DNA of 64,000 nt from Fluviicola sp. (GTDB taxonomy: Bacteria > Bacteroidota > Bacteroidia > Flavobacteriales_D > Crocinitomicaceae), in NCBI RefSeq assembly GCF_039596395.1, contig NZ_JBCNJT010000002.1, forward strand, positions 310,001-374,000. The letters run 5' to 3'. Below, piece by piece: positions 7,676 through 51,558 of this stretch (within the stretch, counting starts at the first letter, position 1; each line of letters opens with the position of its first letter). The notes below the pieces were generated by a model. It searched no databases. It saw nothing but the letters and a program-made list of their open reading frames with translations, and was not told where the DNA came from. The position numbers and the translations under genes are program-made.

Positions 7676-7811
7676 AACCACATAGAAACCATAGATCACA
7701 TAGCTTTGGTTTACAGGTTTGTTGGCATTATAATAAACACACATGTCTAACCGACACGACTAATAGATTATAAACAGGCATTCTCTATGTGGTCTATGTG
7801 ACTATGTGGTT
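7676..7811. repeat. MITE-like element with ACCACATAG ends (136 bp)
   Basis: The left end (7676-7703, beginning AACCACATAGAAACCATAG) and right end (7785-7811, ending GACTATGTGGTT) are imperfect inverted repeats of each other around about 80 nt of unrelated DNA with no ORF. They are close relatives of the perfect 30-bp ends of the GxxExxY element at 19967-20563, so this looks like a short, gene-less derivative. Confidence 0.6.
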
Positions 7812-18877: not shown

Positions 18878-19942
18878 ATGACGTTTGAAATAACTTTGGC
18901 ATGTATTGGATTCCTGATTATGGGAATCATCATGAGCTATGTATCCAATGGAATCCTTCTGCGATTTTCCCAAAGCCTGGGAATCCGGAATAAGAACGAC
19001 GTAACGGTACGCTGGGCCAATGAGTCGAAACCATCTTTGGGCGGGATCGGTTTTTTTGTTGCTTTCTTCTTCGGAACAGTAGCCTACTCGATCATTTTTA
19101 ACAATGAGAATATCTTTCAGAACCGGCAGTTTGTGGGATTAATGACCGCAGGCACCATTTCCTTCATCATGGGGCTGGCAGACGATGCTTACAACACCCG
19201 GCCATTTATCAAATTGTTCGTACAAATCCTTTGCGGGATGATTTTCGTTTACACACACAATATCATCGAACTGACACAGATCGGTTGGGTAAATGCGCTG
19301 ATTACGGTGACGTGGGTCGTTGGAATGATGAATTCCCTGAACATGCTCGATAACATGGACGGAATTACGGGAACTACTTCCCTGTTCCTGCTCCTTTCCT
19401 GTTTGGCGAGTAATGTCATTTTGTTCGATTGGAACATGAACATCTGGACGCTTACCATGCTCATCCAGATCGGGGCGATTATCGGGTTTCTGGGATACAA
19501 CATCTATCCTTCCAAGTTGTTCATGGGCGATGCCGGAAGCCAGTTCATCGGGTTGTTTGTTGCCTTCTTTTCCATTCATGAATTGTGGAATATCGGAAAT
19601 GTGACGCTGTTAAATCCGCTAACCGGCGGAGCAATCACGCTGATTGCCTTCACCCCCGCAATTTCAGACACACTTACAGTTGTGATCAACCGGTTGAGAA
19701 AGGGAAAGTCCCCCATGGTCGGTGGAAAAGATCATACGACCCATCATTTGGTGTATTCGGGGTTAAACGACCGCCAGGTGTGGCTCGTTTTCCTCGGAAT
19801 CGGGCTGATGGCTACTCTGGTAACGATTTTAGCAGTTGTCTTCGCGAAAATGGGGAATCCGTGGATGGCGTTTTTCCTTACCAGCTACTTTTTTGCCGTG
19901 TTTTTTGTGTTATACCGCAACACGATTGTTCACAAGAAGTAA
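18878..19942 (+). CDS. Undecaprenyl-phosphate GlcNAc-1-phosphate transferase-like (WecA/TagO/MraY superfamily)
   Basis: 354 residues, about ten transmembrane helices from residue 1 to the end. Superfamily motifs: SLGGIGFF, the Asp pair in GLADDAYNTRP, NMLDNMDGITG, FMGDAGSQFIG, and the cytoplasmic loop GGKDHTTHHLV. Such enzymes start glycan synthesis by moving a HexNAc-1-phosphate from its UDP form to undecaprenyl phosphate in the inner membrane. It is the last gene of the plus-strand polysaccharide unit. MraY itself is unlikely, as no mur genes are near and the loop is of the WecA type. Confidence 0.88.
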   Translation: MTFEITLACIGFLIMGIIMSYVSNGILLRFSQSLGIRNKNDVTVRWANESKPSLGGIGFFVAFFFGTVAYSIIFNNENIFQNRQFVGLMTAGTISFIMGLADDAYNTRPFIKLFVQILCGMIFVYTHNIIELTQIGWVNALITVTWVVGMMNSLNMLDNMDGITGTTSLFLLLSCLASNVILFDWNMNIWTLTMLIQIGAIIGFLGYNIYPSKLFMGDAGSQFIGLFVAFFSIHELWNIGNVTLLNPLTGGAITLIAFTPAISDTLTVVINRLRKGKSPMVGGKDHTTHHLVYSGLNDRQVWLVFLGIGLMATLVTILAVVFAKMGNPWMAFFLTSYFFAVFFVLYRNTIVHKK

Positions 19943-19966: not shown

Positions 19967-20563
19967 TGAACCACATAGGGACATAGGTCACATAGATTTA
20001 CAAAGTTGCCTGTAAACAGACAACTCTTAGTGGTGATGGATATAAATCAACCGCTAAATGCTTAATTATTCCTGCAAGTTCCGGTATAATTCATTGACCA
20101 GTGTTTTTTGACCTTCCCGAAAGATATTCGTACAATTAAAGTTGATGAGAATTCCTTTAGGCGCATCCAAAAGTTTCATATAGCTTAAAAGTTGGGCTTC
20201 ATATATTGGTTCGAGTGATTTTGTTGCTTTTAATTCAACTACTATAGAACCTGCTACATACAAATCTCATCGCAACATTGTTTCCAACAGTTTATCTCTA
20301 TAGCTTACCGGAACAATCATTTCTGTTTCAAAAGAAATTCCTCTATCCATTAATTCGATCTTCAGACACTCATGATAGATACTTTCAAGTAAGCCTGGAC
20401 CTAATTGACTATGTACTTCGATAGCAGCTCCAATTATATCATAAGTTAATTGATCTAAATAGGATTTTGTCATAAAATGGGAATAATGATTATTTACTTA
20501 ATATAACAAAAATTTGTATAATAACAATCAACTTCTATGTGACCTATGTCCCTATGTGGTTCA
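19967..20563. mobile_element. GxxExxY-carrying element with perfect 30-bp inverted ends
   Basis: The left end 19967-19996 (TGAACCACATAGGGACATAG, then GTCACATAGA) is the exact reverse complement of the right end 20534-20563, by direct reading of all 30 positions. Between them lies one gene, the interrupted GxxExxY gene, in DNA that looks more AT-rich than its surroundings. No target-site duplication is visible, and there is no transposase. Two other loci (7676-7811 and 36101-36282) have related ends without the gene. That it moves, or once moved, as a unit is inference. Confidence 0.6.
20066..20473 (-). pseudogene. GxxExxY family protein (PD-(D/E)XK-like) interrupted by an in-frame TGA
   Basis: One frame of 135 codons with a single stop: the N-terminal 68 residues (MTKSYLDQLTYDIIGAAIEV, with the family signature GLLESIY) end in LETMLR, then TGA, then DLYVAGSIVVELKATK and the rest. 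At this place the family has R-x-D-L, where the Asp and the later ExK (ELK) form the predicted nuclease-like active site, so the stop falls just before it. Both halves are otherwise intact and collinear, and the second has no ATG. A recent nonsense mutation, a sequencing error or readthrough are all possible. The gene is the only cargo between 30-bp inverted repeats. Confidence 0.75.
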
Positions 20564-20619: not shown

Positions 20620-20639
20620 TAGTGCTTTAATTGCATGAC

Positions 20640-21569
20640 ATGAGACACATTTTCATTTGCTTATCTCTTACTTTAATGGTTGCATGCCAGAATAACGAAA
20701 CCAAAGAGAAAAAAGAAGAGGCGAAACACCAGGAAGTCGTTGCTGCATCCGCTGTAGTTTTCCCGGCCTTGCCCCAAAGCATGGAGTTTGCCGGAACGAC
20801 CATCAATCTCCAGGACGAAGATCTGCGCGAACGACTGGACCGCGAAGTGCTCATGACGGCCTATTACCAAAGCGCGTGGATCGGAGCCATTAAACGTGCA
20901 AACAGATATTTTCCTGAAATTGAACGCATTCTGAAAGAAGAAGGTGTTCCAAACGACTTTAAATACCTGGCAATCATTGAAAGTAACCTGCAGCAGGCAA
21001 TTTCACCGGTCGGTGCACAGGGTTTCTGGCAATTCATGCCGGCAACCGCCAAATTATACGGCTTACAAATGAACGATGAAATTGACGAGCGCCTGAATAT
21101 TGAAAAAAGTACGCATGCGGCCTGCCAATACCTGAAAGATGCACACAGCACACTGAATGATTGGGTCATGACAACTGCTTCTTACAACCGCGGAGTCGGC
21201 GGGGTAATCGATGACATGGAATGGCAAAAAACAGAGCACTATTTCGATACTTACCAAAACAGCGAAACCGGTCGGTACGTTTTCCGCCTGCTTGCAACAA
21301 AACTCATTTATGAGAACCCGGAAGCCTATGGTTTTTACCCGGATAAAATGGAATTGTATGAACCATTCCGTGTTCAGAAAGTAGTTGTGGAAGAATCTAT
21401 CCCGAACCTGGCACTTTGGTCAAACGATCAGGGCTTTAATATCAAAATTCTTCGTAAATTAAATCCTTGGTTGAAAACAACCAAATTGACCATAAAGGCA
21501 GGAAAGAAATTCACCCTGCTTTTGCCGGCAGCTTCCGAAAATCTGAAACCATATAACGCTTATAAGTAG
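20640..21569 (+). CDS. Lytic murein transglycosylase lipoprotein (SLT, MltD-like)
   Basis: 309 residues from the ATG at 20640; a TTG three codons earlier is less likely. Lipoprotein signal MRHIFICLSLTLMVAC with acylated Cys16, then a charged linker. The SLT domain spans about 80-230: catalytic Glu114 in LAIIESNLQQAIS, then PVGAQGFWQFMPATAKLYGL, and a later TTASYNRGVGGV. The C-terminal 55 residues, ending KAGKKFTLLLP, resemble a LysM module. It cleaves glycan strands of peptidoglycan from the periplasmic side of a membrane, making 1,6-anhydro ends. A -7 box lies 20 nt upstream. Confidence 0.87.
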   Translation: MRHIFICLSLTLMVACQNNETKEKKEEAKHQEVVAASAVVFPALPQSMEFAGTTINLQDEDLRERLDREVLMTAYYQSAWIGAIKRANRYFPEIERILKEEGVPNDFKYLAIIESNLQQAISPVGAQGFWQFMPATAKLYGLQMNDEIDERLNIEKSTHAACQYLKDAHSTLNDWVMTTASYNRGVGGVIDDMEWQKTEHYFDTYQNSETGRYVFRLLATKLIYENPEAYGFYPDKMELYEPFRVQKVVVEESIPNLALWSNDQGFNIKILRKLNPWLKTTKLTIKAGKKFTLLLPAASENLKPYNAYK

Positions 21570-36100: not shown

Positions 36101-36282
36101 AACCACATAGGTCGTAGAACACAGAGGTTTTGTTTTGATTAGTGCTATTCAAGCTGGCAATTTGTCGTTTCGCTCCGCTCTCATTCTCTTTAAACCACAT
36201 AGGTACATAGCACACATCGTTTTTGAATGAACTTTATGCATAGAACGTATCTTAAATGCGACCTATGTTTTTTATGTGGTTT
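36101..36282. repeat. ACCACATAG-ended intergenic element abutting kdtA
   Basis: AACCACATAGGTCGTAGAAC at 36101 and AAACCACATAGGTACATAG at 36192 face a right end ACCTATG, then TTATGTGGTTT at about 36261-36282. They are related to the 30-bp ends at 19967 and 20534. The right end shares its last two bases with the kdtA stop codon (36281-36283). No ORF is inside, so it looks like a decayed or gene-less copy. Confidence 0.55.
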
Positions 36283-50950: not shown

Positions 50951-51106
50951 AGGAAGTTCAAAAGGTTTAAATCTTCTTCGCTCTGTGCCTTCGCTGACCT
51001 TGCTCTGCCGAAGTGGCTACACAAAGGCAAGAGCTTCAGCATAAGCGTTGTGAGTTTCGAAGGTTCAAAGAGATCAAAAGAGTTCAGGGTTGTTTAACAT
51101 ATGAAA

Positions 51107-51190
51107 ACATTTGAACATTTGAACATTTGAACATTTGAACATTTGAACATTTGAACATTTGAACATTTGAACATTTGAACATTTGAACAT
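51107..51190. repeat. Perfect tandem repeat of ACATTTGA (10.5 copies)
   Basis: Unbroken 8-bp units from 51107 to 51190, ending at the crcB stop codon and lying between convergent genes. The repeated word contains TTGAAC, linking it to the other TTGAAC arrays of the window. It has no spacers and so is not a CRISPR array. Confidence 0.9.
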
Positions 51191-51558
51191 TAAACAACTA
51201 ATTTCCTGCCCAAATATACCATTCCGATACAGAAACTGATCGAGATCACGATATTCAAAACCGCAATCAGCCACTGCCCTCTTTCCATCAATTCCAGGTT
51301 TTCTTTTGCAAAGGTTGAAAATGTACTGAATCCGCCGCAAACACCGATAATCCAAAATGCCTGGAAGGAATCCGCATTCGCAGGTTTCATTTTCATCATC
51401 AGTACCAGGAATATACCTACCAATAAAGAAGCCAGCAGATTGGAAGCGAGTGTTGCGACCGGAAAAACGGATTTCGGGAATTTAAGAATTAACTGACTGA
51501 TCCCAAAACGCAGTAAGGACCCGATTCCTCCTCCCAAAAAGACATAAAATACATTCAT
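51190..51558 (-). CDS. crcB: Fluoride exporter FluC/CrcB
   Basis: 122 residues, four transmembrane helices, family length. Conserved pieces: GGGIGSLLRFGIS, the helix with ATLASNLLASLLVG (channel Asn), and GVCGGFSTFSTFAKE, the Phe/Thr/Ser box that lines the pore and holds the sodium site. It works as an inward-outward dimer exporting fluoride. Only one crcB gene is present, so a homodimer is expected. It overlaps the PAP2 gene by 4 nt (ATGA-type) and ends a unit obg-pap2-crcB. No fluoride riboswitch was recognised upstream. Confidence 0.92.
   Translation of the reverse strand: MNVFYVFLGGGIGSLLRFGISQLILKFPKSVFPVATLASNLLASLLVGIFLVLMMKMKPANADSFQAFWIIGVCGGFSTFSTFAKENLELMERGQWLIAVLNIVISISFCIGMVYLGRKLVV

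Follow-up and report, generated by a model that had tools for sequence, protein, structure and literature searches.

About half of the GxxExxY genes that we examined are framed by inverted arrays of short words, by criteria with almost no background; among the others, arms are weaker or cannot be seen. It is probable that the GxxExxY gene is part of a tiny mobile element of an undescribed kind, and a broken copy of this element lies in the window, i.e. the whole stretch of 64,000 nucleotides from Fluviicola sp. that was analysed (contig NZ_JBCNJT010000002.1, positions 310,001 to 374,000). We know of no established role for GxxExxY genes, and no account of such genes framed by repeats was found in the literature searched, most subscription papers lying outside it. 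Used as text queries, the arm strings had a sole literature match, an eDNA paper on fishes.

The window unit and its interrupted gene

The unit occupies 597 bp (window 19967-20563) in the gap between two protein genes on the forward strand, at 18878-19942 and 20631-21569, which by their sequences are like a glycosyl-phosphate transferase and a transglycosylase, respectively. Its arms form a perfect inverted repeat of 30 bp around one GxxExxY gene. The left arm (19967-19996, + strand) carries three inward ACATAG words in the layout CCACATAG GG ACATAG GTC ACATAG, with the outer edge TGAACC, the spacers GG and GTC and a closing A; the right arm (20534-20563, - strand) is the same array inverted. 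The original prediction had reported this repeat, and all 30 of its 30 bases are indeed complementary. Even the spacers between the words are complementary across the arms, and likewise in the gene-less unit L424. A chance origin of the repeat was rejected on account of the 25-mer core of the arm, which has two matches in the window with up to three mismatches permitted and none in 100 shuffles; a looser arm pattern has nine matches in the window against 0.77 expected.

The gene between the arms (20126-20452, - strand) is a remnant of PD-(D/E)XK type. It had been described as a GxxExxY gene and the only cargo of the unit. The assignment to the family held, with both pieces above the curated cut-offs of PF13366 and TIGR04256 and the whole reaching 131.3 bits with one TGA. 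What had gone unremarked is this in-frame TGA (20267-20269, - strand; TCA on the + strand), which sits directly before the D of RxDL and splits the gene into frames of 68 and 65 amino acids, so that the profile match comes as two pieces. The window copy is therefore a pseudogene and, its gene being broken, can hardly be active. Neither a transposase-sized frame between the arms nor a direct duplication beside the ends was found, in line with what had been reported from the letters of the window.

Gene-less relatives of the unit, already noted at two other places in the window, were recovered as inward pairs. The one at 7678-7809 consists of arrays at 7678-7703 (+) and 7785-7809 (-) with three words each, one left word being altered, and the more degenerate one at 36195-36279 of arrays at 36195-36219 (+) and 36263-36279 (-). 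A second shared module, TTTCGCTCCGCTCTCATT, adjoins several ACATAG arrays (window 36160-36186; L003, L006, L010 and L013) and is repeated in the genome.

The genome as a whole gave six matches to PF13366 and seven to TIGR04256. Its ACATAG units with a gene are the window copy, L034 and L036, and because all three gene copies are broken, the ACATAG system looks extinct here as an autonomous element; an open ACATAG gene is kept in the genus-mate G068 and in the more distant G037, with 62 array matches. Permitting at most one mismatch, we counted 59 ACATAG places in the own genome, forming 48 arrays, among which gene-less pairs are frequent. Neighbouring arrays no more than 700 bp apart were oriented inward in ten cases, in the same direction in four and outward in none, and tandem series of units occur at L002 and at L014-L016.

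The open frames of the own genome (L031, L032 and L035) lie between inverted arms of words other than ACATAG. Those of L035 form a perfect 20-bp repeat, AGCCACGAATTCACGAATTT, and its protein has a G where the catalytic D is expected, although the frame is open. The arms of L031 and L032, of CGCAAAG / CGCAGAT type, are visible by sequence, with scores of 26 and 25 that fall below the 95% level of 28. The original prediction had named GxxExxY genes without such ends as evidence against itself. Read literally, three of the six PF13366 genes of the genome are of this kind, having no ACATAG end; the same three genes are still enclosed by inverted ends of other words, strong in L035 and weak in L031 and L032. 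With these other words at hand, we dropped the idea that only the ACATAG end matters.

The intact GxxExxY protein has about 117-140 amino acids. Ten residues are invariant in 39 chosen sequences (G21, G23, E26, Y29, D66, E76, K78, Y94, N107 and F108) and Q90 is nearly so; the motifs G-x-G-x-x-E-x-x-Y, D, E-x-K and the Y of QxxxY are kept in relatives. We take the conserved residues to be a PD-(D/E)XK core with a QxxxY motif. A structural model of L060 (pLDDT 93) had as its best fold match 4ic1, the Cas4 protein SSO0001 (TM 0.52, E 0.005), followed by phage-type exonucleases; no match reached E 0.001. Cas4 profiles matched weakly (best E 9.7e-5), and one protein also matched a homing-endonuclease model (E 0.01). 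Among six plasmid loci with annotated neighbours, one gene lies beside radA and none beside cas genes.

Inverted word arrays around GxxExxY genes

Is inverted framing a common property of GxxExxY genes, which occur in 38 of 60 genomes of the own family and in 74 of 148 of the phylum? We scored the 300 bp upstream of each gene against the reverse complement of the 300 bp downstream, with dinucleotide shuffles as the null. For 94 loci from the same family of organisms the median score was 29.5 versus 19 for shuffles; 48/94 loci exceeded the 99% shuffle level and 42/94 the 99.9% level, the other 52/94 lying at or below the latter. Mismatched flank pairs of this set exceeded the 99% level in 5.2% of cases, and flanks taken 500-800 bp out did so in 2/90 (0/90 above the 99.9% level). 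A set from named genomes, made up of the best 80 of 584 candidates with 76 usable, is mostly from Bacteroidota and includes Flavobacterium, Dyadobacter, Chryseobacterium, Runella and a Planctomycetota contig; here a score of at least 30 was reached by 48/76 loci, whereas mismatched flank pairs reached it in 12.2% and distal pairs in 0.3% of cases. In a phylum set of one locus per genome, from 29 of the best-scoring genomes, 18/29 scored at least 28 (mismatched pairs 8.5%, shifted flanks 0/28).

Plasmid loci scored at least 28 in 4/8 cases and less in the other 4/8, with 1/8 for shifted flanks; the framed ones include Gemmatirosa (Gemmatimonadota) and Sphingomonas. At L335, on a plasmid record of Sphingomonas parapaucimobilis, a GxxExxY unit (1450-1899) lies between fabD and fabG, with 2 bases between the end of the annotated GxxExxY gene and fabG. 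Phage or plasmid cargo was rejected as a description of the gene on the basis of a single query, L054, which had matches on 8 of 72,556 plasmid records and on none of the 50,697 records from phages.

A count of the words themselves gave the same picture. Inward two-word arrays of the type CRC-NN-A(G/T) stand on both sides of 128/245 GxxExxY loci (55/132 in the largest set, 48/76 in the named set, 22/29 in the phylum set and 3/8 on plasmids), compared with 0/231 in flanks shifted 500 bp out and 1/210 at 900 bp out. Outward arrays on both sides were found at 25/245 loci, and 117/245 are without inward arrays on both sides; at L352 and L355, which are below threshold, arms are still visible by eye. 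Enrichment of inverted arms around GxxExxY genes, akin to the check that the original prediction had proposed for the 30-bp end, is thus borne out. These counts include nine near-duplicate pairs (>90% over 500 bp), each within one set and none between sets, and orthologues in sister species are not independent data points. L044 duplicates L072, which also holds a second tandem copy; these rows and L118 (short flank), L208 (short), L132 (S23, contig end), L257, L319, L329 and L333 (short flanks) and L348 (own genome) were dropped or treated as dependent, and the match G041:C125 and the fragments L215, L221, G066:C10:677154 and G061:C12:143866 were unused.

The units with good arms number 84; their median length is 567.5 bp (interquartile range 530-638), and each carries one GxxExxY gene. 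Their arms are tandem word arrays with a period of about 8-10 bases, mostly inward, with the outer edge CC(A/G)C in most clades. The words differ between loci (ACATAG, ACGAATT, CGCAGATT, CACAGAG, CGCAAAG, TGATT), and the two arms of one locus tend to agree. Intact proteins have arms of the ACATAG class at L060 and L216 and of the CACGAATT class at L108 and L218. One protein clade has a GC-rich, hairpin-like inner module after the words; the inner module GCTCGGCTAACGCGCTCGC occurs at L035, L108, L198 and L218, and CGCCTACCGGTCGC at L112, L223 and L225. No consistent target duplication was found among the 84 units, a test that is not sharp and could miss small duplications, since the unit ends were taken from the arm alignment. 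Flank matches slightly exceeded expectation for 3 bp (6/84 vs 3.3) and 4 bp (2 vs 0.8); the longest was 8 bp in one of the 84 units, with none of 9. A classical transposon or insertion sequence was rejected on these grounds and for want of a transposase in the unit.

The words follow the protein. Loci at 30-35% protein identity share about 5% of their arm 6-mers, those at 70-80% identity 19% (138 loci), and arm words correlate with protein identity (Mantel r 0.341, 0/999 permutations, pairs above 80% left out). The arm words fall into blocks when the loci are set in the order of the protein tree, which was built without the fragments L036, L118, L127-L131, L208 and L232. Co-inheritance of gene and arms would also give such a fit, so that it shows joint travel of the two and not reading of the arms by the protein.

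The array ACATAG-NN-CACATAG is present in 16 of 69 genomes, at least three times in 14 of them, and a reversed control pattern never had more than one match per strand. A gene of the ACATAG clade, whose limits were set from the tree leaf order after the words were seen, occurs in 18/69 genomes, and ten of these also have at least three arrays (array against clade gene 10/8/4/47, one-sided Fisher p 7.5e-5; outside the genus 4/8/1/42, p 0.006). In these counts G066 is assigned to the clade by DNA likeness of its broken copy L231, which the tree misplaces; the protein of L224 is also broken. In the eight clade-bearing genomes without the array, the visible arms use the sister words CATATAAG, CACATAAGG and ATTGAGG. 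Counter-cases exist: G046, G059, G064 and G034 have at least three ACATAG arrays and no clade gene, G064 holding a remnant, and in G067 the clade gene is framed by another word, CACAAAG.

Genes of the S23 (four-helix-bundle) family (L037-L042 and L133-L161) were taken as a negative control for framing. Above the 99% shuffle level were 22/35 of these loci and 0/35 of their shifted flanks, and the framing words, of about 7 nt, differ between loci; two-word CRC arrays of the GxxExxY type on both sides were found at 0/35. Inverted framing by word arrays is therefore not peculiar to the nuclease gene, and from this a broader reading arose, which is set out below. Within the window, an 8-nt tandem array, AACATTTG, with about 11 copies lies at 51106-51207; it may be a gene-less array of S23 type, because a similar word, GTTCAAAT, adjoins the S23 gene L038.

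Gain and loss of units and gene-less pairs

At sequence level, mobility of the GxxExxY units is well supported. Among 13 genus relatives, nine have the same two neighbours as the window unit, and 9/9 of these have a short gap without arms at the site; three have a different upstream neighbour and one has no orthologue. Upstream of the transglycosylase orthologue, an S23 gene with short word arrays was seen in G059 and, by sequence likeness, in G067 (L173, L174).

The site of L216 shows five states in six genomes. G068 has a unit with ACATAG arms and an open frame; in G064, arms enclose only the 3' end of the gene, i.e. an internal deletion; the own genome and G063 each have arms without a gene, those of G063 being of a different word and lying in flanks 95-96% identical to those of G068; G061 and G066 have no arms. 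The unit L193 of G068, with weak arms (score 21), is absent from G064 by the match of both flanks, and from G063 and the own genome as judged mainly by the left flank. L210 is common to G068 and G046 and missing in G063, where another small gene is found, and, by the left flank, in the own genome; as the unit is shared by two genomes yet missing elsewhere, loss occurs as well as gain. Comparison of filled and empty sites, the other check proposed in the original prediction, thus found the window unit absent from its relatives and three further sites polymorphic. A clean filled/empty pair giving exact end points was not among these sites, G063 having the other-word pair at the L216 site and the other gene at the L210 site.

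Alike units also occur at different places. L112 aligns with L213, L222 and L230 from -139 to +87 of the gene at 81-82% identity, and L230 aligns with L213 and L222 over -129 to +72, the arms ending at -127 to -130 and at +72 to +78. L034 of the own genome aligns with L216 from -127 to +107, with arms ending at -131/-109 and +101/+97. The outer flanks of these units gave no match. In more distant pairs DNA homology mostly stops inside the arms; L120 and L122 are 90.8% identical from -160 to +21 and have no arms over threshold. The mobile unit first proposed for the window thus gains support from empty and filled sites, from arm-to-arm homology at different places and from the enrichment of inverted arms around the gene family. 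A homing endonuclease in an intron or intein was rejected, the unit being intergenic and alike units lying at sites without flank homology. The word class differs at orthologous sites of close species in L234 vs L216 and in L036 vs L223, L225 and L227, which, from these sequences, may reflect replacement or a second insertion in the same place.

Genomes with gene-bearing units also have gene-less inverted pairs scattered through them; in the smallest of these, about 18-31 bases separate two arrays, which have two or three words each. In seven fully listed congeners, neighbouring arrays face inward in 14 cases and outward in three. The three outward pairs (L420, L421 and L422; two in G064, one in G066) have their outer ends facing each other 5-8 bases apart, as GGTT-n-AACC; such an arrangement is as would be expected of the joined ends of a circle or of tandem units. 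In G020, gene-less ACATAG units about 124-133 bp apart stand in tandem beside a GxxExxY gene of the ACATAG clade (L121, 1501-2401).

Possible mechanisms and known systems

The smallest gene-less units closely resemble REPINs in plan, the RAYT of such systems being a REP-associated tyrosine transposase of HUH Y1 type. Our best reading, which we consider fairly probable, is a REPIN/RAYT-like system built on an unrelated nuclease, which would read the word array and cut or trim the DNA, the unit being copied without duplication and gene-less arms being served in trans. In such a scheme, the nuclease would act both in cis and in trans, recognising its cognate word array and nicking or trimming DNA at the unit ends; copying or joining would then place the unit, or a gene-less arm pair, in intergenic DNA, and no target duplication would arise. 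Gene-less pairs would result from internal deletion and could be spread in trans for as long as the genome keeps an intact cognate gene, much as REPINs depend on their RAYT. We infer both that the nuclease acts on the ends, as the original prediction had it, and that recognition, cleavage and copying take place in this way.

Could the arms be selected at the level of RNA instead? They would then form a stem in a transcript, whereupon RNase III would excise or neutralise the insert, as happens with intervening sequences (IVS) of 23S rRNA, while the gene rides along and spreads by some other route. According to PMC4990558, one 23S IVS with an S23 open reading frame has 428 nt, terminal inverted repeats and tandem heptamers GACAGAT. 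Such a parallel, together with the framed S23 genes found here, the one GxxExxY unit between fabD and fabG and the complementary spacers of the window unit and L424, would suit a selected stem. A stem would require nothing beyond complementarity, but the words are tandem, are common to unlinked copies and follow the protein clade, and the gene-less pairs L426, L429 and L430 keep their words while their spacers differ between the arms; we therefore regard this explanation as unlikely. Much the same gene-less pairs, along with the internally deleted unit and the lack of a transposase-sized frame inside, would be expected of MITE-like cargo, whose arms an ordinary transposase mobilises in trans with GxxExxY as a passenger. 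Such a transposase would hardly tolerate terminal words that vary as widely between units of one genome as they do here; one unit after another frames a GxxExxY gene of the matching clade, and no target duplication recurs, the single 8-bp flank match and the absence of any of 9 among the 84 units included, so that we hold a passenger role to be quite unlikely.

Passive repeats would require no enzyme at all: slippage, template switching and recombination between dispersed arrays would make them, and GxxExxY genes would survive among them by chance or as domesticated genes. Tandem amplification in G020 beside L121 and in the own genome (L002, L014-L016) fits such processes, as does the different word class at one site in close species. 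What makes this explanation very unlikely is the enrichment around one gene family, with nothing in 231 shifted flanks, the mostly inward orientation of the arrays and the lack of these two-word arrays on both sides at all 35 S23 genes of the same organism family.

The favoured reading, a nuclease that drives its own arms, can be widened. Heptamer repeats are reported to be over-represented in many bacterial genomes, polymerase slippage being one hypothesis (PMC4692102), and on one author's proposal the mobile part could be a protein that binds the repeats (PMC4679880). That both gene families are framed points to a single wider kind of element comprising at least two classes of protein. We speculate, tentatively and with less confidence than for the nuclease reading itself, that GxxExxY and S23 units are two classes of one undescribed and very widespread mobile element, made of a small protein and inverted word arrays that it alone recognises. 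Word specificity would co-evolve with the protein, gene-less arrays would be non-autonomous progeny, 23S IVS would simply be the copies inserted into rRNA, and debris of such elements would account for much of the intergenic excess of heptamers and 8-10-mers.

If GxxExxY proteins drive word-array elements, a large unexplained gene family gains a function and a class of intergenic repeats gains an origin. The clade-specific words directly predict which protein binds which DNA. A PD-(D/E)XK nuclease tied to REPIN-like spread would, if true, be the first such enzyme to our knowledge.

How do these units compare with known systems? Nucleases of Cas4, lambda-exonuclease and RecB type share the E..D..ExK..QxxxY residues and, as far as the model predicts, a weak likeness of fold with the GxxExxY protein, which is unlike them in its small size. 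The 23S rRNA IVS are similar in length (about 0.4-0.6 kb), terminal inverted repeats, one small open reading frame and tandem short words, whereas GxxExxY units are intergenic and have another protein family and 8-10-nt words of another consensus. The window unit itself was rejected as an IVS, lying between two protein genes and holding GxxExxY instead of S23. Like MITEs, GxxExxY units include gene-less inverted pairs and, from a unit with the gene, a derivative with an internal deletion; they differ in having neither a transposase nor a consistent target duplication, and in ends that vary between units. Closest is the REPIN/RAYT system, which also has a gene between inverted short repeats, many dispersed gene-less pairs and a cognate repeat per enzyme clade; on such systems see PMC6006769, PMC8049555 and PMC2817692. 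Dispersed gene-less pairs are likewise present here in genomes with the cognate gene, and in four genomes with at least three arrays and without one. The differences are a nuclease of PD-(D/E)XK/QxxxY type in place of an HUH Y1 transposase, ends of tandem word arrays in place of single palindromic REPs, and a gene-bearing unit that comes and goes between close species. With its PF13366/TIGR04256 gene the window unit was rejected as a RAYT, and the GxxExxY system, having the plan of RAYT/REPIN with an unrelated enzyme, is therefore not a member of that family.
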